Part shown: one piece after another, positions 11,178-52,027 of the stretch
Layout of the letters: every line of letters starts with the position of its first letter
Position numbering within the stretch: position 1 is the stretch's first letter
Assembly: GCA_029378245.1 (NCBI GenBank)
Contig: JARKIF010000010.1
Coordinates: 1,860,001 to 1,924,000, forward strand
DNA from: Roridomyces roridus
Taxonomy: Eukaryota; Basidiomycota; Agaricomycetes; Agaricales; Mycenaceae
Direction: 5' to 3'
DNA length: 64,000 nt
Position numbers and translations under genes: made by a program
Notes under the pieces: generated by a model
The model's database searches: none
Told to the model about the DNA's origin: nothing
What the model saw: only the letters and a program-made list of their open reading frames with translations

Positions 11178-11776
11178 TGTGATGTCCCCAGAAGTTGAAT
11201 TTGTAGGGGATGAATGTTAAGATCCGATTCCAAAAGACAAGTCCGGAGTAGATGCCGGAACTCCGGTAGTGACCGGAGTTGGAAGGAGTCGACCGGAGGA
11301 GCGATCTAAGAGCACCACAGAGGAGTAGGGTGTCAAAGACGCCTTGCTATGTTGATAGGAAGGGAAGGAGTAGGAACCAGCCAAGACGAGTAGTCAAGAA
11401 CGTCAATTATCAACTAAGGTTGAACACAGATAAGGAAAGTCTTATATACGAGTAAGTAGAGATATATGTCATTACCACGGATCAGTAATGGAAACGGACT
11501 TATGCGGCTATGTGGATATAAGCTGATTAAGTCCGCACGGAATGATCAAGTGGATATCCTGATGAATACCAAGTCCGGGGGAAACACTCAGATACCTTCA
11601 TCGCGTGAAAACCCGAGTACCCGGATAGAACCGAGGAGCGCGTGATGCGCTTCGACGTCGGGAGGCATCCCGACGTGTGACCGGAGTTGAGTACCGGAGT
11701 TGAGTACCGGAGTTGAGTACCGGAGTTGAGTACCGGAGTTGAGGTACCGGAGTTGGTGTTGGAACGGGACATAACA
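11178..11776. mobile_element. possible solo LTR (~599 bp)
   Basis: Begins TGTGATGTCCC and ends GGGACATAACA, an inverted repeat with TG...CA ends as in LTRs, and has an internal TATA-like CTTATATACGAG near 11440. No flanking 5-bp duplication is visible (CTCAG versus ATGAA) and no internal retroelement genes are nearby, so the call is tentative. Confidence 0.45.
11681..11754. repeat. 13-bp tandem repeat
   Basis: CCGGAGTTGAGTA is repeated about five and a half times, the later copies with a one-base insertion. It lies close to the right end of the LTR-like sequence. Confidence 0.85.
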
Positions 11777-23937: not shown

Positions 23938-25561
23938 ATGGGCGTCCTCCCCGTTCTCTCCGCGATTCTCCTCGCGAGCACTACGCACGCCGAGTTCACT
24001 TTCGTCCGACGCACTTCGCTCGCTCCGCGGTCGCAGGACGTTGCTCTCCCGGCTGCAGAGTTTACCGTCCCATTCACGGGCAAAGCGTCCGTCCGCAAAA
24101 GCAAGAAGGGCGCACTGGCTGCATTGCGCGGCGGTGCCAGCAACGCGGTCGTCGTTGACGGAACGGATTTTGACGAGGAGTACATCACGAATGTGACTGT
24201 CGGTGGACAGCACTTCGCCCTCATCGTGGACACCGGAAGGTGCGTGCGCCTAATCTTGCATCTTCACTCTGATGTATCTCTATGTTTAGCTCCGACACCT
24301 GGGTCCCGCAAATCGGATTCAACTGCTTCGATCTTGACCATAACCCAGTCTCCCCGGATACCTGCGCGTTCGGCACTCCGGGTTTCAATATCCAGGCTTC
24401 CAAGACGTTCAAGCCCTTCCCCAACGTGAGCTTCAATATCACCTACGGTGACGGGGAGTTCCTCTCTGGGCCAGTCGGCTTTGACACCATATCTGTTGGC
24501 GGACTGTCTGTTACCGGTCAGGAATTTGGTGTGCCCACTCTCGCAGCGGTGAGTTTCGCTTCCGCATGAATTCAACTCCTGAACGCCTTTCAGTGGGAGG
24601 GCGACACCGTCAATACTGGATTGATTGGTCTGGCATTCCCGGAGTTGACTAGTGTATATAACACGACGGACCCAACCAAGGCGTCTGGTGCAAACCAACT
24701 CCCTTACGACCCGTTCTTCTTCACCGCCGTCAAAGAGAAGAAGCTGAAAAACTCGAGTGCGTTTGACTTATTCCCTGCACGCGACTCGAAACAAATATAT
24801 TTCGCTCAGTATTCTCCGTCTCACTCGACCGTGGCACCCTTGAACAGCAAGAAAACGACATCTTCGACGCCAACCTCGGTTTCCTCGCATTCGGCGGTAT
24901 CGTTCCGGTGCCAGTGACTGACACCTCCGTCACCGTCCCGATCGAGGGATACTCGGCCACAACCGGCATCCCCTCCTCCGCACTGGGCTCCACGTTCTTC
25001 TTCTACACCGTCGACGTACGAGCTCCTTCCTTGATTCCTTAACCTTGGATCTAACGACAGGTCCTACAGGTCGAATCCTTCACCTTCCCCGGTTCCAACA
25101 AACTGAGCACGGCGCAGAACAACACGATCCTCGACACGGGAACCACCCTCAACTTCGTCCCCACCGATGTCGCCGCCGCGTACAACGCAGCATTCAAGCC
25201 CCCGGCCGTCAACGATCCTGACGTCGGCGGATTCATCGTCCCGTGTAACGCCACCGTCCCCGAGTTCTTGGTTCGCATCGGCGGGAAGGAGTTCAGCGTC
25301 GATGGGCGCGACCAGTTGCTTCCTATCGGGACGGATGCGAATGGTGTGTTGACCTGTATTACGGGCACGCAGGATGGTGGACCGGCGGTGGCGGATAATA
25401 TTTTCATTTTGTGAGTTGTGGATTTCCCTCCAAGTTCTCGGTACTCGTGGAACTTGACTGACGGAATGGGATACAGGGGCGATGTCTTTTTGCACAATGT
25501 CGTGGCTACTTTCAACCCGATTGCGGAGCAGGTTACGCTGACGCAGAGGCAAAAGTACTGA
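23938..25561 (+). CDS. secreted aspartic protease, A1 (pepsin) family (451 aa)
   Basis: Endopeptidase of the pepsin fold. Six exons: 23938-24239, 24290-24548, 24594-24756, 24810-25015, 25070-25410, 25477-25561; phases close on TGA. Signal peptide MGVLPVLSAILLASTTHA, then a propeptide to about residue 75. First catalytic motif LIVDTGSSDTWVP (Asp about 98) is completed across intron 1; the flap Tyr is in FNITYGDGEFLSG; the second motif is TILDTGTTLNFVP (Asp about 332). The C-terminus NIFILGDVFLHNVVATFNP is the standard end of the fold. A 9-nt shift of the exon 5 acceptor (25061) would add VLQ and is also in frame. Its 3' end faces the 3' end of the minus-strand DUF2235-TPR gene. Confidence 0.95.
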
Positions 25562-25734
25562 ACGAGGGCTTTCACGTTGTAAAAATATACCATTGTATGG
25601 ATCGAACGAGAAGATGAATCATGATTAAGAATGGGTCTGCATACATGAAAGTAACTAGAAGGCCTAGGAAATATTGGTTTCGCCCCGGCATCAATTCTCT
25701 TTGAATTGTCCCTCGTGGTTGGGTTTACGGTTGG

Positions 25735-26251
25735 TGCGCTAATACGTGGAGTATTTGGTGAATACAAAGACTCGGATGCTCCGCTGATTGTGTCCACTCA
25801 CCTCGCAGTCTCGGTCGCCGGATTCACAATTCCCGTCGAAACAGGCGAGGACGCCAGACTCGTGGTCGGGTTTGCAGCTGATGCGCCAGCGCTACGTGGA
25901 GTATTTAGTGAATACCAACATGCTCAGCTACTTTGTGGAAACTGACCTCGGACTCTCAGCTGCCGCATTGTCAATTCCAGTGGTTGATAGTTTAGGGCCT
26001 TTAGGCGAGGACGATGCGCTACGTGGAGAATTCAGCAAATACCAACGTGCCCAGTTACATACTAATTTGTGGACACTCACCTGGGAGTCTCTGCTGCCGT
26101 GCTCAACCCGATCGCAGTGGTTGACGAATCCTTCCCAGGTGCGGTTCCAGTCTCTACACTGCCCTTCGGATCGTCACTGGGTGCTTGATTGGCAGCTGGT
26201 GGGCTGAGCGGCGTTTGAACGAACCTGCTCGGCTAATTTGTGTTCACTCAC
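25735..26251 (-). repeat. tandem array of duplicated exon-intron cassettes
   Basis: Exons on the minus strand at ...-26251 (donor end), 26158-26081, 26018-25947, 25891-25802 and from 25738. All internal ones begin and end in phase 2, and each codes a Ser/Thr/Ala-rich peptide ending (T/S)TGI-x-N-A-x-E-(T/S)-P-R (examples TTAIGLSTAAETPR, TTGIDNAAAESPR, STGIVNPATETAR). Introns share sequence too, e.g. TCCACAAATTAG after the donor and GAATACTCCACGTAG-like acceptors. So whole exon-intron units were copied. Confidence 0.8.
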
Positions 26252-29200
26252 CTGGGGGTCTCGGTTACTATGTTCGGAGCGCCAGTGGCCCGGGCCGATG
26301 ACTCCGCGGCTGTACCAACTGCGGTTTCAAGCTCCGTGATCTCTGATTCAATTTCCACGGCCTCTTGTTCCTGCCCAAGGGCGCGTAGATCTTTGGCGAA
26401 TAATCTCAGAGACCTGAGCTGAGCTTCCCCACAGTTTGAGTTTGTCTTTTTGATCTTCCGATAAAGCTCAACGGCCCTCCTTTGCAGCAGCAAAGAATCT
26501 TCCCGGAACTCCCAAGTGCGTAGTACCAATGCCAACTCATCGAATGATAGTACAGCCAGGATAGGATCTGTCTCCAGCAGTTTGGAGAGGATTTCATCAC
26601 TCTCCGCTTCAAGTTCGGCGACAGGTACAGTGCCATTCGAACCGATGACACGCTCGATTACGGCGAGAAGTTTCAATGATTGAGCCAGTCCAATCTGTGG
26701 CGATATTGCGGTCGGGCCATCGCACTTCCGGAACAGCTCGACAGCCTCGTGGTAAGCCTGGATGGAAGCTTCGTGCTTCTTCAAGGCACATAAAGTGGTT
26801 CCCAGATTTATCAATGCCTGTGGCAATAGGCGGGGCCAATCTGTTGCGGAAAGTGCCCGAGATATCTCGACCGCCTCATTATGGCACCGGAGCGCGTCCT
26901 CCTGGTGGTGTGATGCAAACAGATTATAACCTTCACTCATGAGAGATCGTGCAAGCAATTGAGTCAACTTTGGATCATCTGAAGGAGGTGTGCGCAGCAT
27001 TGCCGTCACTTGCCGGTGGGTTTCCACCGCCTCATCGTAACGCCCGACAATTTCTAGATCCACGCCAACCATGTGGATGCAGCTTGCCACACGTTGAGAA
27101 GATGAAGCATCTGCCTCACCGAGTTTGCGACAAAATACAACTGCATCCTCGTCCCAGTGTAGTGCCTCCTGAAAGCATCCTACTTTGCGAAGATCAGATG
27201 CAAGTCTTGACAATGATCCCACTAGAATGTTGGTCATCGCCGGGTCTGTCTCTGCTAACTGTCGCTCAATGACAACCTCTTCTCGCCTGATCTGAACCGC
27301 CTCTTCGTAGCGGCCAACAGCATGGAGAATCAAGACTAGGGCACTCAGTGACTGTGCAAGGTCTTTGGTGGTGTTGACTGTGTTGGTCTTTGCTGCGAGG
27401 TCCCGTCTAATTGCTACGACTTCCTCGCGGGCATGTAATGCCTCCTCATCACGGCCAAGATTGCGTAGATCAAGACTGAGATGGTTCAGTGAAATTGCTA
27501 GGCTCCTTTTGAACATTGCATCAGTATCGGCAAGTTTGCGGCGAATATCAATGGCCTCTTGGTCCACACGCAGTGCATCTTCGTGCCGACCAAGATTTGT
27601 GAAATCAAGCCCAAGGTTGTCCAAACAGCTGGCAAGATTTTGGGTGACAGTGGGGTCTTCTTTCAACCGATCACGGTACACCGCAGCTGATTCTTCATCC
27701 GCTTGAACAGCCTCTTCATGGCGTCCCAGTCTGCGGAGATCAAAAGCAAGGTTGCTCAATGACCGGGCTAAATCCTTGACTACTGTCACATCCGACTCTT
27801 TCACGAGGTTCCTGAGAATGTCGGCAGCTTCTTTGTCTGCCTTCGCTGCTTCTTCGAAATTCCCAATTCTCCCGAGATCTACACTCAGATTGTTTAATGA
27901 CCTTGCAAGGGATTTCTGAAAGCCCATGCTGTTGGAGTCCTTGCGGGCAAGCTCCACAATTTCTTGGTCCACCTGTACAACATCTTTGTGGCGACCGGCT
28001 TTACGGAGCCCCTGGGCCCATTTGTCCAAAGCTGACACCAGATAATGGTCTGAGAGTTTGCGAGAAACAGCGACCACTTCTTCTTCAATATGAAGTGCTT
28101 CCTCCTGTTGACCAAGCTTGTGGAGATCTAAACTGAGATTCCACAAAGACCTTCCCAAATCTGTAGTGTGTCTTGGACTGTTGTTCTCTGCGAGTTGGCG
28201 GCGTAACTTGACAGCTTCTTTGTCAGCATGCACGGCCTCTTCATAGCTCCCAAGTTTGCCAAAGATCCCCCAAGATCATTGTATGCCCACGCCAAATATT
28301 CGCTCTTCCTTGTTAATGTGTCTGGAAACCTCCGAATAGTTTCAAGCGCTTCTTTGCCAATCTTGAGTGCCTCCTCGGAATGATTTGAACCTGCAAGCTG
28401 TAGTGCAAGTTTACTCAATGCATCGGCAAGGAGTAACTCATTGGCGCTTGGATCCATTGAGGCAGCTTTCTTGTGCAACTCAACAACTTCTCTCCGGGCT
28501 GAGAGTGTGACTTCCAAATCATCTGTTCTGTGCAATTGGGCAAAGACAGTCAAGGCCAAAGCAAGCCCCTTGACAGTCATCAAGTCTGTTTGAGAAAGTT
28601 GCCTGAAGGTCTCAACGGCCTCTGTAATTGCGGATATTGCCTCTGTGTATTTCGTCGCAGCCTGTAGGTCCCATGCAAGACCAGTCAAAGACTTGGCAAA
28701 ATCCCTGGCCATGGTTGAATCTCTGTCCTTCAGCTGCCGACGAATGTCCACTGCCTCGGTGATGTACAACAATGCTTCATTGTGGTGATTGAGATGTGAA
28801 AGCTCTGAAGCCAGAAAGTGAAGTGACTGCCCAAGGTGGGGAAGGACCGTGGGATCTGTAGATGCAAGGGACCTTCGAAGGTCACTAGCCGCTTTGTGGG
28901 CATTCATAGCATCTTCCTCATAATCCAAATAACGTAGAAGAACACCAACACAGCTCAAGGAATTTGCAAGGGGCTCTGTGGTGTTTCCATGTGCACTGCT
29001 TGGATGAAATTTAACAGCATCCTGTATGTTGCTCAGGGTATCATCTGAGAGCTCTTGTATTTCGGCGGTCCGATTCTGAAGCTTCTCCAAACAGGTGTTC
29101 AAAGTTTGGATGGCATTTTCGGGAGCTTGTCCAGAACGACGGGCAACATCCAAGCGGGTAGCTGCAGCTTTCAAAGCAATATTGAGCGCCTCTGGGACCT

Positions 29201-31566
29201 GTTTGCAAGCCACCAATACCCCTGCTTTGTGCTCCAGTAATGCAGCAAGATCAGCATCAAATGTGTACAGCTGGCGCTTTTGTAGCTTTTCAAACAGAGC
29301 AACTGCAATATCAATATCCTCTGTTTCTGCTTCAATGTTTGTCTGTGAGCTAGCTTTTTCAGCCAAATTCTGTGCAGAACTTGCATCTTTGGCTGCAGGT
29401 TGCTCAAGTTTTGATAGATATGTGACTGCCAGTCTTCCGGAGAGAGCCATGAATGCAAGTCGTTGAATGAGATTTGTTTCAATCACTGCATCCACTGGAA
29501 CACTGGGAGACTGCCCATCAGACTCTGTCCAAAGTTCCTGTAGTCTTTGGACAGCCTGTAGCATGAATGGCGGATCAAAGAGCTCTTTTTCAACCTGATT
29601 GCCCAGTCCATCTACCCAGCTAAATGTGCTGCTTGCAATCTCCCTTCCAAGGAAGGAGTCCCATTTGATCCCTTTGGGCTCTTGGAATTTTGCCCGAGGA
29701 ATGTACTCCTTCTGATTCTTGAATGCCACAGATATATGAACACGCTGTCCTGGAACAATGGTCCGTCCGTCACCTCGGTGCAGTGCCCTGTGGACTGAAT
29801 TTAGTTTAAATAAAAGAGATAACAGAAAGAATGTTGCCTGGTATGCTCTCCGAATGCCTGGAATGACAGATGCTTCAGTGGAAGGTACTCGCAGACTTTC
29901 CAGAGCCCCGTGAGAGACTTGTGGATGTCATTTCTGCGCAGGTCTGTCGTTTCCCATTCACCTCCAGCTTTTCGGGGAAGTAATCGAAGCCCAGCCTGAA
30001 ACTGCCTCATTTTCCATCCAGAGCAGTGGTACTGAGGAAAGATTCAGGTTTTGATTCTCTTTCACACCTCCGCCTCTGAAAAATGATCAGGTCCAGCTTC
30101 TGCAAGATAGGAAGACGTTCTCACATATCAGAGTGCGTGCCAGGGAACCACGCCTCCTTCACATCAAGTGAAGTAATTTCAGAGCCCTGAGCACTGCCGG
30201 CCACATATTCTGGAAGAAATCGTACTCGTTGTTCATCCAACGCCAGCGCATGCCGAAAGATGCAAATATGTTGGGCGGAGGAGGTGAGAGGAAGCAAATT
30301 CCCGTAAATTATGCCTACAGAGGAGACAGTGTCCCTAGGACCAACTAGTTCAGAAAAAAACACTTGCAGATAGGGTTGAATCCATAGCTCACCAGACACC
30401 GGTGAAGTGGATTCGAATATCTCTGGAGAATGTGCTTTTGAAGTTGCGCGCAATTTCATCTCTCCTCGCCTTCTTGCGTTCCTTTCCGCGAGTCCCTGTA
30501 ACACAAATTGAAGTATGGACATATAGAATTGGGCTTAGACTAACACTTTGTCTGCAATGCAGCTCGGGCCTCACTCATGCTGCCCCATTTTAAATCCACA
30601 TTCTTCTGGTCTTCGGCATCCATGACTGCAAAGATATTCAGACTGAAGAAGACTGACGCCCGCGCCAACTACCTTTTCCTTGATGACGTCCTAAATAGAT
30701 CTCGTACGCGCTGTGGGTATGCCTACTGAGAGAGAATCTGTGAGATTGGTTGGCCACGCACTATGGTATCATGCTCTCATTTCCTCGATCAACCAATCCA
30801 ACTCTCTCAATCATGGCTGTCAAAGCTCGCGCTTGGTAGGCGCCTCGGGAAAAACCTAGGCGTACATGAGCGCGTTCGTCGCGCTAATCGTCCAGCGGGA
30901 ACCCTACCAAAAATGAAAATCTTGTCTCCATGGTGATACATTTGGGAAAGCCACTTGTACGCCTCGAGAATATTGACTTTCAAGTTCCTTGAGAAGGCAA
31001 ATCATCATCTCAGAGGATTATCTGGGTGTCAATTGTCACCTACCGAGCGATCGCAAGGTCAATCGTGGTTCCAATCCACTCGCCAAAGCGATTCATCGCC
31101 GATTGCCCTTCATTCGGTACGTAGCTCCCAATACCAGGATGATAATATTTATGCTGCTCCGCTTTCGGATCGATATGCCCGTGAAGCTCGACGACATTCG
31201 TGTTCTGGGTGTATTCATTGAAAGCAGTTTGAGAAAGTAAACGAAAGCACTCACATAGACGCCAAATTGTTTGGACGTTCCATCGATCGACACCACCAGA
31301 TTTCGGGAAACACGCGCTCGACAGTTCCCGACGCAAGGCTCGAGCCGGCATACGCAATGGTCCTCGCAAGCGCAGGTGCAGTTGCAGTTGCAGTTCGGGA
31401 TGCATGAGCACCCACAGGTCTTCGTCGGGCCCTGTAGCTGGTCCATGTGTTTCGCAGGCGTCGGATCCGCTTGCCTGTCGTTGGAGATCCCGGTCGCCAA
31501 GGGCAAAATGGTGCCCAGCCGGGAACTGTCGGGAGCTTTGACTTCTGTTTCTGTGCCGGTTTGCAT
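25738..31566 (-). CDS. DUF2235 hydrolase domain fused to a long TPR array
   Basis: Start 31566 (MQTGTETEV). Exons: 31566-31255, 31204-31044, 30987-30908, 30855-30762, 30710-30673, 30625-30545, 30495-30393, 30334-30125, 30075-29838, 29787-26251, then the phase-2 cassette exons; the terminal exon starts at 25738 and its end is unclear. Order: a cysteine-rich segment (CGCSCIPNCNCNCTCACEDH), then DUF2235, the alpha/beta-hydrolase family of the bacterial phospholipase Tle1: LVVSIDGTSKQFG, TNVVELH, nucleophile elbow GFSRGAYQARALTAMIE, GVWDTVSSVGI, FRHALALDEQRVRFLPEY and WFPGTHSDIGGGGVKE. After VPGQRVHISVAF come about 1,100 residues of ~42-residue TPRs (e.g. LGRHEEAVQADEESA). Intron 29837-29788 is GC-AG. 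Two one-base shifts, in T4 near 30010 and C5 near 28266, break the frame; both are homopolymers, so assembly error is as likely as decay. No NB-ARC/NACHT domain is visible. Inference: TPR-regulated lipase-like effector. Confidence 0.78.
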
Positions 31567-41527: not shown

Positions 41528-42433
41528 TGTGAGTAGAGAAGACAGGGATGGGTGAGATCCTCAGGAGCCGCCGGTGGGAGATTTATGGAGAGGCCGAGTC
41601 TGAGACATCGCGGAACGATGGCGGGACAAAGTATAAAGACAAAACATTCTCAGAGTTTCTTGACTTAGTTTGAAAGTTGAGCCAGAGCAGCACCTGGAGG
41701 CTGGCCAAGACGACGTGGTCGGTCCGACTCCGAGTCATATCGTGGAGCCGAAGACAAAAAAATGTACCACGTGCAGGAACCAGGCAGGGATCACGAATCA
41801 CGTCATCCATCACTGCTCGGCAAGACATCTTGGCTTCGACCACCACGATGCACCATGATTTGCTCAACGAAATCCCTATGGTGCCCACCCTCTCAACGCA
41901 AAACTGCTCCCTGCACCGTCGATCTTTGGCGTTCTCAGCGTGCCCTCGACCGCCACCCTCCCACGCATATGCTTGCTCTGATACGTATCATCCCGTTCCA
42001 CACGTTCCTTGTTCTGCTCGACGACGACGGCTGACGTTTTCCATGTCTCACACTCTCGCTTGCGTCTCCAATGTTTCAATCACGCCGCCACCGTCAACCT
42101 CTGAATCATCCACCTCTCCGATGTGCCCCGCTGGCCGTGATTCTCTGCGGGTGCAATCAAGCATGGATGTGTCTCTAATTGTCTATTAAGCCAGCCATCG
42201 AATTGATTGTCTCCTCGACGACCTCTCACCATTCTGATAAATACCGCGGTCCGGCCTTGCGGGTGCGTTTCTTGCGGACCAGCTGCCAGAAAAGGATTAA
42301 GGGCAGTGATTCACTACTCGGCTGCACTTTGTCTTTCGTGTGGCACTGGCCTATTTGAAGCCACCCACCTTGGGCCCCGCCGACGCCGCCTCTCTCCCAC
42401 TTCTCTTCTCGCTGCACCGCACCCCCGCTGGAA
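41528..42433. promoter_or_regulatory. shared upstream region of two divergent DUF6534 genes
   Basis: The 906 bp between the starts of DUF6534 genes 3 (-) and 4 (+). No exon is supported inside it. It presumably holds both promoters; no clear TATA box stands near either start. Confidence 0.45.
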
Positions 42434-44366
42434 ATGACTAGCGCTGCTTGGACCTACGGCCCTCTTCTTTTCGGGGCTGCGCTCGCTCTTATGTGCGTTC
42501 CCTCTCCTCCTTCCTCGACAAAGAAAGCTGACTTGACGGGAAATCAGGCTCAGTGGGATTGTCGCCGTTCAATGTATAATATTCTTCAAACTCTATCCGG
42601 ATGAGAGTCGTTTGAAACGAGGGATGGTCGCGGTCGTGTGGTGCGTTCGCTCTTCTCCCGTGCCCTTTTCGCGTAAACTAACTGGTACCGAAAACAGGCT
42701 CCTTGACCTGACGCAGTCCGCCTTCATCCTAGCGACCCTCGTCCATTTTTTCGTCACCCACTTTGGCAATCAGACGGTGCTGCTGTTGATCCCATGGTGC
42801 GTGCTCCCCCCTTCCTTGAGTCCCGAAAAGATCCAAACCTATCGCAGGTCTGTTGCCGTACGTCCTGCCTCTCACTATCCCGGAAACGCCGAATGACCTG
42901 CTCCCGCAGCTCACTATTTTATTAACTGTACGTGCAAATTAAACAATTAATGGACTGGGCACACTCACATCGATCTACGCAGGCCATCCAAACCTATGTG
43001 GTGCACATGTTCTACGCGCAAAAGATCCTCCTCAGTGAGTCTAGTGGCTTGTATCGATTGAATCTAAGGCGAGGAATCGGATAGCTGGGAAGAACTGGTA
43101 CGTCGCTGGGCCTATCGTGAGTCCCTCGTCTCCCAGATCATCGCACATCGTAATCCGTACACACAGATCGTCCTTGCGACTCTGCGTCTCGGTACGGTCG
43201 ACTGCATTCTCTGACTAGCTTCGGTTTGCTAATTTCCGACGTTCCGTTGACAGTTGCCGCCACCGGTACGTGAACTGTGGTGCCTGAGCCACCTCCCGCT
43301 GACTGATACAATTCATTTAGCCTCGACCATAGAGATGTCCGTTCTATCCATCCATCAACACTAGAACCGTGCTGACGCTCCGCATAGGCTCTGTCTCGGC
43401 CACTGGTTGCCCTTCATCCAGCCCAACCCCGCAGCGCGTTTTGATCCCCATGTACGTCTTTTCGCTTCTTGACTGGGGATCGACTATTGACCTGCGCGCA
43501 GTTTCTGTTCACGACTGGTCTCTCACTCTCGGCCGGCACAGACGCGCTGATCACGCTGTGTCTGTGCTACTACCTGCGCAAGGTCCGCAAGTTGTCGAAT
43601 TCCTCTGTGTGCGTGCTCCTGTTCTTCGTTTCCTGGTATATGCTGAAATGGAATGTACTTAGAATGAACGGCGTGTTGGACACGCTAACGTTGTATACAC
43701 TCGAAAATGGTTTCATCACCTCCCTGACGACGATCGCTGCCCTCGTTTTCGTACGTCCTCAACGGTGTAAGCAGGCTTTGGATGGCTAACTTCATATTAA
43801 CACACAGTGGCTCACCAAACCCGAGACAACCCTGGCTCTCTCTTTGCACTTTGTCATTGGCAAATGTACGTTCTCTTGTACTTGCTATCCACACTGCTGA
43901 CTGATTAACAGTGTACCCAAACTCCCTCCTCATACTGCTCAACACCCGGAAAGAGCTGCGCGAGATGCACGCGGGCGATCCCGGTGTGCATGTTGACCCC
44001 CTGGCTCACTATTACACGCAATTTCCTCATCGGGCACCCCGGATGCGGGGGCTCTCGCACTCTCATCACACGGGAGTGGGCGTGGGAGTGGGAGCAGGGA
44101 CGGGAGTAGGCGCGCAATTGGAGTACACGCCAAGTCGGGAGCCGCTGGTCGCTGCGCCCACACGCGCCGCCATGGCCATGGACCAACAACCGCAGTCGTA
44201 CCGGCCTGCGTTCAAGATTATGCGGCCGGTCCAAGTCAAGGTGGAGCGCACCGTGGACGTGAACAGGACGTCTATGGCTACAACCTCTGACGGGCATGAG
44301 TGGCGTCAGCCCCAGCCCAGGTCGTGGAGGTCGCATCGGGCGATTCATTGGCCGGGACTGCCTTGA
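42434..44366 (+). CDS. seven-TM DUF6534 protein 4 (395 aa), 15 exons
   Basis: Exons: 42434-42492, 42548-42640, 42698-42796, 42848-42857, 42910-42927, 42983-43034, 43085-43116, 43167-43191, 43254-43265, 43321-43336, 43388-43451, 43502-43608, 43663-43750, 43808-43865, 43912-44366; phases close on TGA. Helices include YGPLLFGAALALMLSGIVAV, LLDLTQSAFILATLVHFFVT, FYAQKILLTGKNWYVAGPII, ALITLCLCYYLRKVRK and WLTKPETTLALSLHFVIGKL followed by YPNSLLILLNTRKE, the standard DUF6534 end. The tail has a run of Gly-Val repeats coded by a GGAGTGGGC-type tandem (44075-44115). Function unknown. Confidence 0.88.
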
Positions 44367-45829: not shown

Positions 45830-48450
45830 GTAGTCTAGTGGTCGTACGCGGTTGTAGATTGACAGACAAAAGGGGTGCAAGAATTCGGTGACGACATATC
45901 GGAGTGTCCAGGTTCTTCATTGACAGAGGGGCAGTCACCGAGTCACTCCAGATTCGAATCCTGGAACTCGCATATTTCGGTCGACCTCTGGGTAAAGACC
46001 CCTTTTTTCGAGATTGTACCAGTGGAATTTCGTCATGCGGTACCGATCGAGCCCTACATACACCAACCTCGGCGCTACAGCGCTGAGCGTCCCGGAGAAA
46101 CACAAAACTAACACTGATCACATAATCGGAACTGCAGAGTGCAGACAGAGTTCGATAAAAATTTCAAGACTTGGAATTGGGGTAAGTGCTACGCTGGAAG
46201 TCTGTGCATTGAATTATGGATGAATGAGCCTGTTTCAACGGTACTCTGGTTGCTCTGAGCGCCAGCGCAGAAACTTGTCACAGAGTGAGAACTGGAGGCA
46301 GAGTTCCATTAGGTAGGATTAGATGCCGGGTTCGAATCCTGGCCGTCACATGGAGCGATCATAGTACATATCCCTTTTTCCAAGCCGCAAGTGTTACAAG
46401 TGCTGTTCAATTTTTGAATCCGAGACCATGATGCCGCAGTTGCGAGGCTCGGCAGTCTCATGCTCATTCTGGATTAGGAGCCCAGGGTGCCTAATAGGTA
46501 CACTGACTCGGAAACAGTAATGGATCACCAGATCTTGAAAATTGGACGCGGTGTCAAGCCTGATGGAGGGACATTGTAAACTGGTTGTGGGGTGTAGTAG
46601 AAGCACTAGGATGGCTACTATTAGCAGGTACAAATCGGAGTCCGAAATCGGCTTTGTTCGGCTTCAGTGGTGTGTCAAACGCGAACATGTGATCCATTTG
46701 TTATTCTGCATTTGGTTGACCCACACTATTTGCCGTGAAACACTGCAACGACTGACCCAAATGAGCTCGAATGTTGTACAGCTCCTCTTCACTATCCCAT
46801 CTTCCATCTGTGAGCCAAAGCAGTGCACTTCCGGCCTGCTCAGGGACTCAGAAACATCAAATGAAGAAATCAGTAAAATAATCCTCCCGTGTACCCGGGA
46901 CCCCCTAACCATATGGTATAACTTGTCAGTGGGAGCTCATGGATGCTGGAAAAGCTTAGTTGTCCTCAAAAAGTGGAAATTCAATGTGCAGAGTCCTCCA
47001 TTCAATTTTCATTGCCGAGCTGAACATCGGGTTGAAAGTTCAGCACTTGTTCTCAGGTGTCTTGAGTGTCAATGCCATACCAAAACTGACCAGGATGAAG
47101 CCTAGGATACTCTACTTCATTAATCCAGTGTCCCAGGTACAGGAACAGAGCTATAGCATGTATGCCCCGAGACCAGACAGTGTTGTTTTTCAGCTCTGAT
47201 CTGTGGCCGGATTTTTTGCATAGGGTCAACCATCACACCATCGAGTCTGTACATCTTCTAGGCATCTCATAGGATCCAAAATAGCACAACTGATCAAACA
47301 AGACCCAGAAATATGGCTTATCGGGGCTGTTGGGAGGCTCCTTGCCCAGGCTGTATATACAGATCATGCAAAAATCACCATCAGGCAACCACCCACCATG
47401 CACGTCTGCATGAGTTTCCTTTCTTACACTCTAGGTGTAACCCAGTGACCGGCATCTACTGTATTCAGCCGGACTTTCACATTGTGCAAGGCCCTATTTC
47501 AAGATCAAGGCCACCAAAGAGCCGTCACGGTGGCCAAACAGTGGTGGAAGTTCTTCGACCCTGATAGGGTGTGAGGTGGTCACAGTCACCTTGCCTGTGT
47601 CATTGGGGCAGTCCTTAGGATTGGAAGAGTTGCCCTATACATGCTTGAGACCTCTCATTAAAGACTACTGGCAGGCCATGGGCACCTTTGCCATGTTAGT
47701 GGTCACCACTTCATTGACCAAGGGCTTCACAACCAACCCACTTGAGACCGGATTTTTGGGCCCAGAATTGCTCAACAGACATCAAGCTATCATCCATTCC
47801 AATTTCCAGTTGCACCTGCAGCATTAAGTCCAGATAAAAGATCAAACACACGGATTTGACGGAAACCAGATTTTAAAATGGATCACTTTCATTTTTGTGA
47901 TCACTCTGCTTTAGCAAGGAGAGGGTCAGGCAACTCAATATTTTATGGGTATATACTAGACCCTGTAAGCTTCCTTTGAAGACCTTAACATTGCCCAGAA
48001 GTGGCGTGGCTGTGAAGCAATGCATCAAACAATTTCGAACCACGCGTGATCCATTACTTTTTCCGAGTCAGTGTACCATCTTCTCAAGTTTTAATAATGC
48101 CTTCCCAAATCATCGCCCTCCATCTCAATTACCAGAGACCATCGACGTCCTCACAGAATGGGGGCGGAAAGCGGAAGGTGCTAAGCACCAGAAGGGTTCG
48201 AATCCCGGCCGTTCCATGGCGTAAGTCTCCATGTCCCTTTTTTTGAAGGTGGGCCGTCAGACTCCGACCAGCTCAGTTTGAGGCATGCAGTATGTCATGG
48301 AGGTGTCGCGGCTACCCCGGCGCTACACCAACGTCGGCGCGTACATAATTCATCGAGCCTCTCGGGGAATTTGGAAATGGCACAAAACCTGCCGCAGAAT
48401 CAGAGTTGCAGGCATAGTTTGAGTACTATTCCTAAGCATATCGGGCTTCC
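45830..48450. repeat. ~1-kb direct repeat, copy 1, split by a transposon
   Basis: 45830-46500 plus 48074-48450 correspond in order to 48990-49950. The two halves are separated by the TA-flanked element at 46501-48073. Confidence 0.75.
46501..48073. mobile_element. decayed Tc1/mariner-like DNA transposon (1573 bp)
   Basis: Inverted ends CACTGACTCGGAAAC/AAGTAATGGATCAC (28 bp, one mismatch) with TA on both sides (46499-46500, 48074-48075). The size would suit a transposase gene, but I find only broken frames (e.g. 46664-46912 minus), so it is probably dead. Its base composition is richer in A+T than the flanks. The sister repeat keeps an unfilled site around 49573, GCCCAAGTACCATC. Confidence 0.85.
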
Positions 48451-48989
48451 TTTTGCATTTTTTATGCCGCGCTTGATCTAAGTCATGGGTGTAGCCCGGC
48501 AGAGATCACAGGCGTTCCGTCACGGTCTCGAGGAACAATCACAAGCAAGTTTATGTCAAGGAATGAGTTCAGTTGAATCGGTTCACGCTGGAGACGTTAG
48601 GTTCAAACCTAGCCTCTCTCTATGGCTGCATGAGGGTACTGTACCGTTTTTGCTGATTGTACCAGTTCAATCAAGACATCATGCTGCATCATTGCCATCA
48701 AGGTGTCCACCACCCGAGAGCTATACCAGCGCTAGTCCACCTAGCATCCTGGAAGACACTCACGGAACTGCAGGATAAGGGGTTGGAATCTACACTATAT
48801 TCGGTCAGCCGGATACTCTGTGAATGTCGGACAGGGAGGTGCTTTCACTGGTGCGGTTGATTTCGGTCGAGGATGTATCGACCCTCGAATGCCAGTGCAT
48901 GTACGAGAATGGGCCGTGACAGGTTGACATCATCAACCTACCAGGGTTCGATTCCCGGTGCCTCTATTTTTGAGGCCCAAATGGTGAAG

Positions 48990-49950
48990 CAAACGACGAG
49001 TTAGCAGTGGTCTTACGAGGTTGTAAATTGACAGATCAAGGTGCTTGATTAATTGAGAAGCTTAAGAGAGCCTGATATCATGAGCACACGGGGCGGTTGC
49101 AGCAGATCATGCTATCGATCACGACGAAGAGATATCGGAGTAGCCAGGTTCTTTGACACTGGCAGGCAGAGGGCCAACCGAATCACTCCAGGTTCGAATC
49201 CTGGACGTCGTATACACCGCCCAGCCTCTCCCACCTTTTTCGAGAATCGAGATTAAACCAGCTGTATGTGGGCATGCGGCACCGACTCGGAGCGCTACCA
49301 ACATGCTATTACCTCGGGCGCATAGACCCACCCAGCGTCCACGTCTTTGAGAAACACAAGACTTGTCACATAATCAGAGTTGAAGGCAGAGTTCAACTAC
49401 CGCTCCGCAGAGGTTACCCGGGTGATTGTGGATATGCCGGGTTCGAATCCTGGCCGTCATATTCAGCGATATCGATTGCGGTTGTGCTCTTCAATTTTTG
49501 AATTCCATACCATGCCGCAGTTGCGAGGGTCGGCAGTCCATGCCCATTCTCATCCGGATACGCCCAAGTACCATCCTCAACAGTACCTTGCAGGCAGCAG
49601 ATCGTCGACCATCTGAATTACCAGTGCTCCGAGGAGAGAAGAGACCATCGCCGTCCTCGAAGAATGGGAGCGGAAAGCGGGAAGGTGAAAAGCACTAGAA
49701 GGGTTCGATTCCTGGCCGTTCCATGGCATTATCGGATAAGAACTTCCTTTTTCGAGAGTTGACCGGCAGACTCGGACTAGCATGGAGTATGCCACGAGGA
49801 GGCTGTCGGCCACCCCAGCGCTACTAGTAACCAACGTCGGCGCGTACATAATCCATCTACTTCGCCTCCTGGGGAATTTGGAATTTGGAAATGGCACAAA
49901 ACCTGCCGCAGACAGAGTTGCAGGCATAGTTCGAGTACTGCTCCTCATCA
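48990..49950. repeat. ~1-kb direct repeat, copy 2 (uninterrupted)
   Basis: Aligns with copy 1 from TTGACAGATCAAGG through GTTCGAGTACTGCTCC. Contains three T-arm-like words (49190, 49440, 49700) and the empty site of the transposon found in copy 1. Confidence 0.75.
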
Positions 49951-50100
49951 CATATATGCGTGGCGTTATAACAAGGATTCAGAATCATGTGGGCTCGAAT
50001 CCCGGCCGTGCCCTGGGCAATAGTAAAACCAGGCTCTTCCTTTTTGGATTCAACGGGTTTTACTTATGTAGTGAGCAGGTGCCGCACCTTTGCAAAGCTG

Positions 50101-51185
50101 TGTTTGAATTCAATTTTAAACTTGATGGCATGCCGCTGGGCGCTACACCAACGCGCCGGGTACGGAAATTACCTGAGATTTTTTCATCGCGGATACGCTA
50201 GAGGGAATTCCCTGCCTCCTCGAGAGTCGGATTTTGATCAACCAGCGGGATTCTCAACTCTTGGCAATGGCACACGCCGCCAGGTCCCATCAAGGCTATG
50301 TAAAGCGACGATCAGATATTGACCGCCAGCCAAGCGTGTGGCGCTGCTGGCTGGTGCGGATCCGGGATTAAAAACCCGATATGCCGATGATGCCGTGCGA
50401 GCCGGATGGATTGGATGGATGGATACCGGCTGAAATGCGACTCGGCCTCGATCGCTAACCGAATAATATATTATGAACGTGAAACGTTGACTTGCGGCTG
50501 CCCATGGCCTGCTTGCCCCGTCGTTGCAACGTTGGATGTTATTGTTCCGGCATGGCATTGTACATCGCCAAGCCCATGGGATTACCAGTACGCGGGGATG
50601 CGAAACGGAAGCCTTTCAACGCAATATGTACTTAGATTGAATCCCTGACCGCGGTAGATGCGCTGAAAGTCAGTCAGTCGGTCAGTCAGTCCATCAGAGT
50701 TCTGTAGATGTAGTGGTCGAAGAGCGGTGATGCTTACCTTGTGCAAAGTATGCATACTTTTGGTACCGACTTTATTCTGGTTTGGTCTTTTTTTAACAGA
50801 GCAGGTGGGAGCAGGTGCCTGGGAGCTGATGATGTTATTTAAAAGCCTCGCTTCGGCTGCTGTGCCGCTGCAGTGGTTCAACGGAAGTTCACCTTGGATT
50901 CTGGAGAGAAGGATGTTGAACTGCCAGCATTCCGCGTCCTGTCGCGGAATGCCCTGCGGAACCCAAAAGTGACAGGGGGCGCGCCGCGCAGTTAGAATCA
51001 TCCAATGCGTCGGTTCACTGTTGACTTCTCTGCATCAATCTCACACGCGTGCTTCTGCAAGCGTCGGATCAGCATCCGTAAGGTGGCTGAGCTATTTGCT
51101 GTATAAAAGGAGCCGAGTCGCGCCCTGGGTCCCCATTCCACCTTCGTCGAATCCCTCTCCTCCTTCTCTTACCTTTTCACGAATC
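50101..51185. other. intergenic; promoter of the next gene at the right end
   Basis: No gene seen. A GTCAGTCAGTCGGTCAGTCAGT microrepeat (about 50668-50692) is present. A TATA box GTATAAAAGG at 51101-51110 lies about 80 bp before the ATG at 51186. Confidence 0.55.
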
Positions 51186-51639
51186 ATGCTCTTCCGCCCC
51201 ATTGCCCTCTTCGCCCTGGCTGCCTCCGCCTCGGCATCCATCATCGCCCGCGCCGCTGCCCCCGCCGTCGCGCACACCCCCGGGTCCCTCTCGACCCTCG
51301 CCATCCAGGTCCTCGAGACTTGTGTTGACACCAACCTCAACAACTGCCTCATCTGGTCTGCCACGACCCTCCCCGTTGGCTGCACCAACATCGCCGCTGC
51401 CGGTCAGGCTAGCGACGTGAGCAGCGTGTCCACCGTCGCTGGTGTCGTTTGCACCCTCTTCTCGTGCGTCCCTACTGGTTTTTCTTCGTTTCCTTGGATG
51501 CTGACGCGTTGCTGTTTTGTTTTTACGTAGCTCGACGACCTGCACTGGCACGTCGCAGATCATCAACGGCACGCTCAACGCCCTTGCCGTTGTTGGCTAT
51601 GACAACACCGCCAACTCGTTCACCTGCGTCTCGTCATAA
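51186..51639 (+). CDS. small secreted protein with six cysteines (128 aa)
   Basis: Two exons, 51186-51463 and 51531-51639. Signal peptide MLFRPIALFALAASASASII. The mature protein has six cysteines: ETCVDTNLNNCLIW, LPVGCTNIAA, AGVVCTLF, STTCTGTSQIINGTL and the C-terminal FTCVSS, probably three disulphides. Cysteine spacing does not match the hydrophobin pattern (no CC pair). Similar small cysteine-containing secreted proteins are common in Agaricomycetes; function unknown. A TATA box at 51101-51110 and a short CT-rich leader precede it. Possible effector or structural wall protein, but the sequence does not show which. Confidence 0.85.
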
Positions 51640-52027
51640 ATACCCTTCTCTAGCGTGTTTTGTCGGCTTCGAGTTGTTAAACATGTGGTTAATGGAATAC
51701 GGAATAAAAAAATTGTGAATTCGTGTGCATTGTGTGTCAATGCCGATTTGATCGGATCAGTCCGCTTGCAGCGGATGGAAGCCTCTTGCTTTCTCCCCTC
51801 ATCTACTTACTTAGTTCTCCACGACCCAGCGATGCCCATGATGATCTTCTCACTGCTCCCCACAGCTGACTCCGCTCTCCACCTCCGGCACCAGACTCTC
51901 AAAACCTACTGCGGCTCGTGTCCTCCACGCCCTCTCCGCATGTCATGAACGATCGATGCTGCGAGACATCCTTAAGTTATAGCGCACCCACCCGCATGTC
52001 TCCATTCACATCTCGCCTATTACCTCC
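51640..52027. other. intergenic, no gene seen
   Basis: About 390 bp between two same-strand genes. No supported exon. Confidence 0.5.

Follow-up and report, generated by a model that had tools for sequence, protein, structure and literature searches.

Near the 3' end of a gene on the minus strand of the mushroom Roridomyces roridus (Agaricales, Mycenaceae), several short exons and introns resemble each other (26251–25739 of the window, the 64,000-nt stretch of DNA that we analyzed). Where did these repeats come from, and do they encode part of the protein? Based on the sequence comparisons described below, we believe, with a probability of roughly 75%, that a short exon-intron unit was duplicated locally and in tandem, and that its copies formed a lineage-specific tail rich in serine, threonine, alanine, and proline.

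The array follows a large TPR-coding exon in frame -2 (26330–28275, with Pfam matches to TPR_10 and TPR_12 on the open reading frame 26248–28275). We call this exon 1. Its 3' end, which lies after the last TPR and ends in ...NIVTETP-AG/ (26252–26312; the slash marks the splice site), resembles the cassettes and is the most diverged copy, which we identified with nhmmer. Downstream, all on the minus strand, are intron 1 (26204–26251; 48 nt, GTGAGT...CTCAG, phase 2), exon 2 (26081–26203; 123 nt), intron 2 (26019–26080; 62 nt, GTGAGT...CGTAG), exon 3 (25947–26018; 72 nt), intron 3 (25892–25946; 55 nt, GTCAGT...CGTAG), exon 4 (25802–25891; 90 nt), a fourth copy of the intron (25739–25801; 63 nt, GTGAGT...TATTAG), and a degenerate fifth copy of the exon (25665–25738).

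Exons 2, 3, and 4 are open, have lengths that are multiples of three, and are in phase 2 at both ends, so they are frame-neutral. The initial annotation had proposed at least four such symmetric exons; we count three complete ones, as the end of exon 1 is diverged and the fifth exon is degenerate. By eye, no donor resembling the other cassette donors was found after the fifth exon copy. This copy is absent from the public protein. Its first in-frame stop is at about 25051, antisense to the neighboring gene, which by our own reading of the sequence encodes an aspartic-protease-like protein (about 23938–25561, plus strand) and is convergent with the cassette gene.

The public protein for the array gene is FB45DRAFT_1029096 (P0001; 1154 amino acids, on contig C2, with its annotated start at 29450 on the minus strand). 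Within the array, this model contains exactly exons 1–4 and uses introns 1–3. Joining exons 1–4 from 26400 onwards gives 145 residues, and the end of the public protein is identical to these letter for letter. Exon 4 is the last exon of the model, the fourth intron copy is left unspliced, and the stop is an Arg-TGA within the donor of that copy (AG/GTGAGT). Sequence homology and the public gene model both support the proposal that the gene's 3' end carries symmetric cassettes in tandem, which encode a Ser/Thr-rich tail.

The other introns would also end the protein if they were retained. Introns 1, 2, and 4, if unspliced, give an immediate Arg-stop, and intron 3, whose donor is GTCAGT, gives Arg, followed by five further residues and then a stop. 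By itself, this is nothing special: in phase-2 introns generally, a GTGA donor contains a stop in frame. We also compared the introns to CTRAY, a branch-site consensus. The best match is 4 of 5 positions in all four introns, so the branch site does not separate the spliced copies from the unspliced one. In the public model, a Glu-[Ser/Thr]-Pro-Ser motif is encoded at all three junctions where introns 1–3 are spliced out.

To quantify the similarity of the copies, we compared each pair of introns to 500 dinucleotide shuffles, and exon pairs were also compared to 500 shuffles. All six intron pairs scored above all 500 shuffles (z = 5.4–10.4), which bears out the earlier view that the introns are repeats of each other. 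The closest pairs are the neighbors 2–3 and 3–4, as expected under tandem duplication. Across the array, homology is weaker for the exons than for the introns. Just 3 of the 10 exon pairs scored above all shuffles, and these are the neighbors 2–3, 3–4, and 4–5 (for 4–5, z = 5.3 and 0/500 shuffles reached the score). The neighboring pair 1–2 did not, as 63/500 shuffles reached its score. Neighboring introns and neighboring exons are thus both homologous, the exons in three of four neighboring pairs. Because the neighboring exon copies 2–5 are only 66–77% alike in ungapped columns, the amplification is probably not recent. As for the peptide (T)TGI-N-A-ET-PR that the exons were said to share, variants of it are recognizable, but the resemblance is loose, with 5–9 of 17 residues identical across six ungapped pairs of cassette ends.

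We also built an nhmmer profile from units 2–4, leaving out the copy formed by the end of exon 1 and intron 1. This profile matched the end of exon 1 and most of intron 1 (26312–26219) at E = 1.9e-7. There was no further match at E ≤ 5 in the 193 kb that we scanned, which comprised the window and 129,004 bases from 28 non-overlapping loci out of 70. Across all 70 loci, matches were confined to the 8 that overlap the array, with none in the other 62.

As a modest control, we scanned 556 pairs of neighboring intron-like stretches, drawn from 941 candidates. At a score of 20 or higher, there were 6 similar pairs inside the array versus 5 elsewhere, so neighboring look-alikes are not unheard of. 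Two of the 5 are a single tandem repeat in locus L066, apparently non-coding, and two are a single pair in the window, each counted with alternative acceptors. At a score of 46 or higher, there were 2 pairs in the array versus 2 elsewhere, both from the L066 repeat. We rejected both of these candidates. For the window pair (42493/42641, score 28), a repeat search of 41800–43600 gave no repeat at those places, and the L066 pair (1660/1773) belongs to a 112-bp tandem repeat that by eye looks non-coding and transposon-like. That repeat (L066:1540–1788) has splice-like GTGAGT...CAG ends. Within the 193 kb scanned, a run of four homologous introns with open symmetric exons was found only in the array.

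Several features suggest that the exons are translated, or were in the recent past. The G+C content is 0.54–0.64 in the end of exon 1 and exons 2–4, versus 0.42–0.52 in the introns. In the right frame the tail has no stops, whereas the two alternative frames contain 6 and 5, and its codon score is best in the right frame (15/1000 base shuffles reached this score). Also, second codon positions show the fewest differences between cassette ends (39/102, versus 51/102 at first positions and 60/96 at third positions; these are sums over six pairs that are not independent of each other). The open frame, codon score, G+C contrast, and few second-position differences all support translation. The tail has 120 amino acids, is rich in Ser, Thr, Ala, and Pro, and contains six [ST]P sites, versus two in the other 1034 residues of the protein. 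It is probably flexible and disordered, and might be suited to proline-directed phosphorylation or to a role as a spacer.

To see if the array exists elsewhere, we searched the 90.8-Mb assembly. Among the best-scoring candidates of a DNA search, no second copy of the array was found, and no second haplotype copy that would allow cassette counts to be compared. The assembly is partly redundant, as a 3.5-kb stretch of the window (48477–52000) is 100% identical to part of contig C489 (2417–5934), a redundant or alternative contig; no such contig was found at the array. Both of our intron patterns, allowing up to 3 mismatches in 27 positions or up to 2 in 19, occur only within the array, so we discarded the idea of a dispersed introner family.

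The TPR relatives that we compared do not have the tail. In this genome, six TPR relatives end just 0–11 residues after the match (L043, L044, L045, L046, L047, and L049; these represent seven loci, as L045 and L055 are near-identical). Apart from C2, the TPR search matched nine contigs. Two of them, C460 (L050) and C334 (L059), have over 100 residues between the match and the next stop. The match thus does not mark their C-terminal end, and we left them out of this comparison; the cassette profile found nothing in either one. The DUF2235-TPR proteins P0013 from Mycena vulgaris and P0061 from M. sanguinolenta carry DUF2235 in the same protein as the TPR block, which is 32–37% identical over parts. 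By eye, their C-terminal ends contain no matching cassettes, and they were absent from the matches in our tail search. By eye, P0003 and P0061, both from M. sanguinolenta, end in a short Ser/Thr-rich stretch beyond the TPRs, without matching cassettes. More broadly, residues 1000–1154 of FB45DRAFT_1029096 were not similar to any other protein at E ≤ 10 among 6039 candidates that share words with them. As the array DNA was found once, the relatives compared lack the tail, and this protein search gave no match to it, the tail probably arose locally, with tandem duplication as the simplest route. A title-level literature search returned nothing on this gene or on cassette arrays in the Mycenaceae.

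Further upstream, the gene is less tidy. It had been described as a DUF2235-TPR gene. DUF2235 (PF09994) does match upstream of the TPRs and on the same strand (30124–30998), but these matches lie beyond the annotated start at 29450 and the domain is absent from the annotated protein. Judging by the relatives, the frame changes near 30000 (in the DUF2235 part) and near 28250 (in the TPR part), and the stretch 29995–29858 matches relatives in a frame unlike that of its surroundings. These breaks might be either small assembly errors or gene decay, and they raise the chance that this is a pseudogene. The public model has a 23-nt "intron" inside the TPR coding sequence (28128–28150), where the relatives switch frame. 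This is probably a prediction artefact across the frame break, which suggests that the public model was made automatically.

Could the array be a non-functional 3' repeat in a gene that is decaying? If so, the predictor took up splice-like signals, and translation stops shortly past the last TPR, perhaps at the Arg-TGA in donor 1 (26251). The upstream frame changes would fit with this, as would the six relatives that end near the last TPR, the immediate stop if intron 1 is retained, and exons that are more variable than introns. We consider it unlikely, given three consecutive open exons with lengths in multiples of three, the contrast in G+C, the codon signal, and the second codon positions, which differ least. 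That introns are more alike than exons would also fit with introner-like propagation, in which a mobile intron inserted copies of itself at a number of neighboring sites and the intervening exons are unrelated. This seems extremely unlikely because no copies lie beyond the array in the assembly at the mismatch limits given above, and because the neighboring exons 2–3, 3–4, and 4–5 are alike too.

Another idea is compatible with tandem duplication rather than exclusive of it: the array might be a device for varying the tail, with the number or inclusion of cassettes being regulated or polymorphic and the tail's length under selection. In favor of this, the three complete cassettes are frame-neutral, and retention of any intron leads to a stop at the donor or within six residues. 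We think it very unlikely nevertheless, as the divergence of exon copies 2–5 suggests that they were probably not amplified recently, and our searches found neither a second copy of the array in the assembly nor a protein matching the tail (E ≤ 10) to compare with.

Tandem duplication has its own difficulty: the introns are more alike than the exons, and 7 of the 10 exon pairs are within the range of the shuffles. This is the opposite of what protein constraint alone would lead us to expect. The exons may be less similar because their lengths have changed and because a disordered tail is under weak constraint.

If tandem duplication is correct, then unequal exchange or slippage would have produced several head-to-tail copies of a short exon-intron unit from the 3' end of the TPR gene. 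With phase-2 splice sites on both sides of the unit (AG/GT...AG/C), each copy would add a frame-neutral exon, and together the copies would build the probably disordered, lineage-specific tail. As a GTGAGT donor in phase 2 reads Arg-TGA, the last cassette in use would end at the fourth copy's donor, which is left unspliced. With three complete frame-neutral cassettes, the layout would permit gain, loss, or skipping. From sequence we infer how the unit was duplicated, that the introns are spliced in cells, and that the tail serves as a spacer or phosphorylation platform.

We also speculate that the gene's own terminus was copied, so that the Arg-TGA in AGGTGAGT became a splice donor at each duplication of the 3' end. 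Each duplication would then make an intron of the former stop and 3' UTR, and the stop would shift one cassette further. This is quite unlikely. If it were true, the tail's length would depend on the extent of splicing along the array. Were such a route shown, it would be a simple rule for extending the C-terminus without damage to the frame, and one could check it by searching genomes broadly for terminal stops that lie within phase-2 donors.

The array looks like a known type of gene evolution. Internal gene duplication with the creation of introns was reportedly described by Gao and Lynch in 2009, a study cited in PMC2809761. Tandem genomic duplication is among the intron-creating routes reviewed in PMC3443670. 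Such duplications involve local copying within a gene, AG/GT boundaries, and a segment that can supply splice signals, all of which the array shares; the array differs in that the intron is repeated along with the exon, and it is known from its present state alone. In the potato RdRp gene, as described in PMC4974935, an intron was gained through tandem duplication. There, as in the array, the duplicate spans an intron-exon boundary and inherits the branch site and acceptor of the parent intron, but the account is of one new intron, versus four homologous introns in a row in R. roridus. Introner-like elements have multiplied in Dothideomycete fungi (PMC4457414), and these similar introns are spread among genes, while those of R. 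roridus were found only in one array. The array would be a compact fungal case of stepwise gain of a C-terminal tail by copying frame-neutral exon-intron units.

Elsewhere in the window, 46499–48076 contains a repeat of about 1.57 kb with terminal inverted repeats of some 30 bp. It has at least 28 near-full-length matches in the genome, with 91–97% identity, and is probably a TIR DNA transposon. At 11680–11755, a 13-bp unit is repeated 5.8 times with 98% matches.
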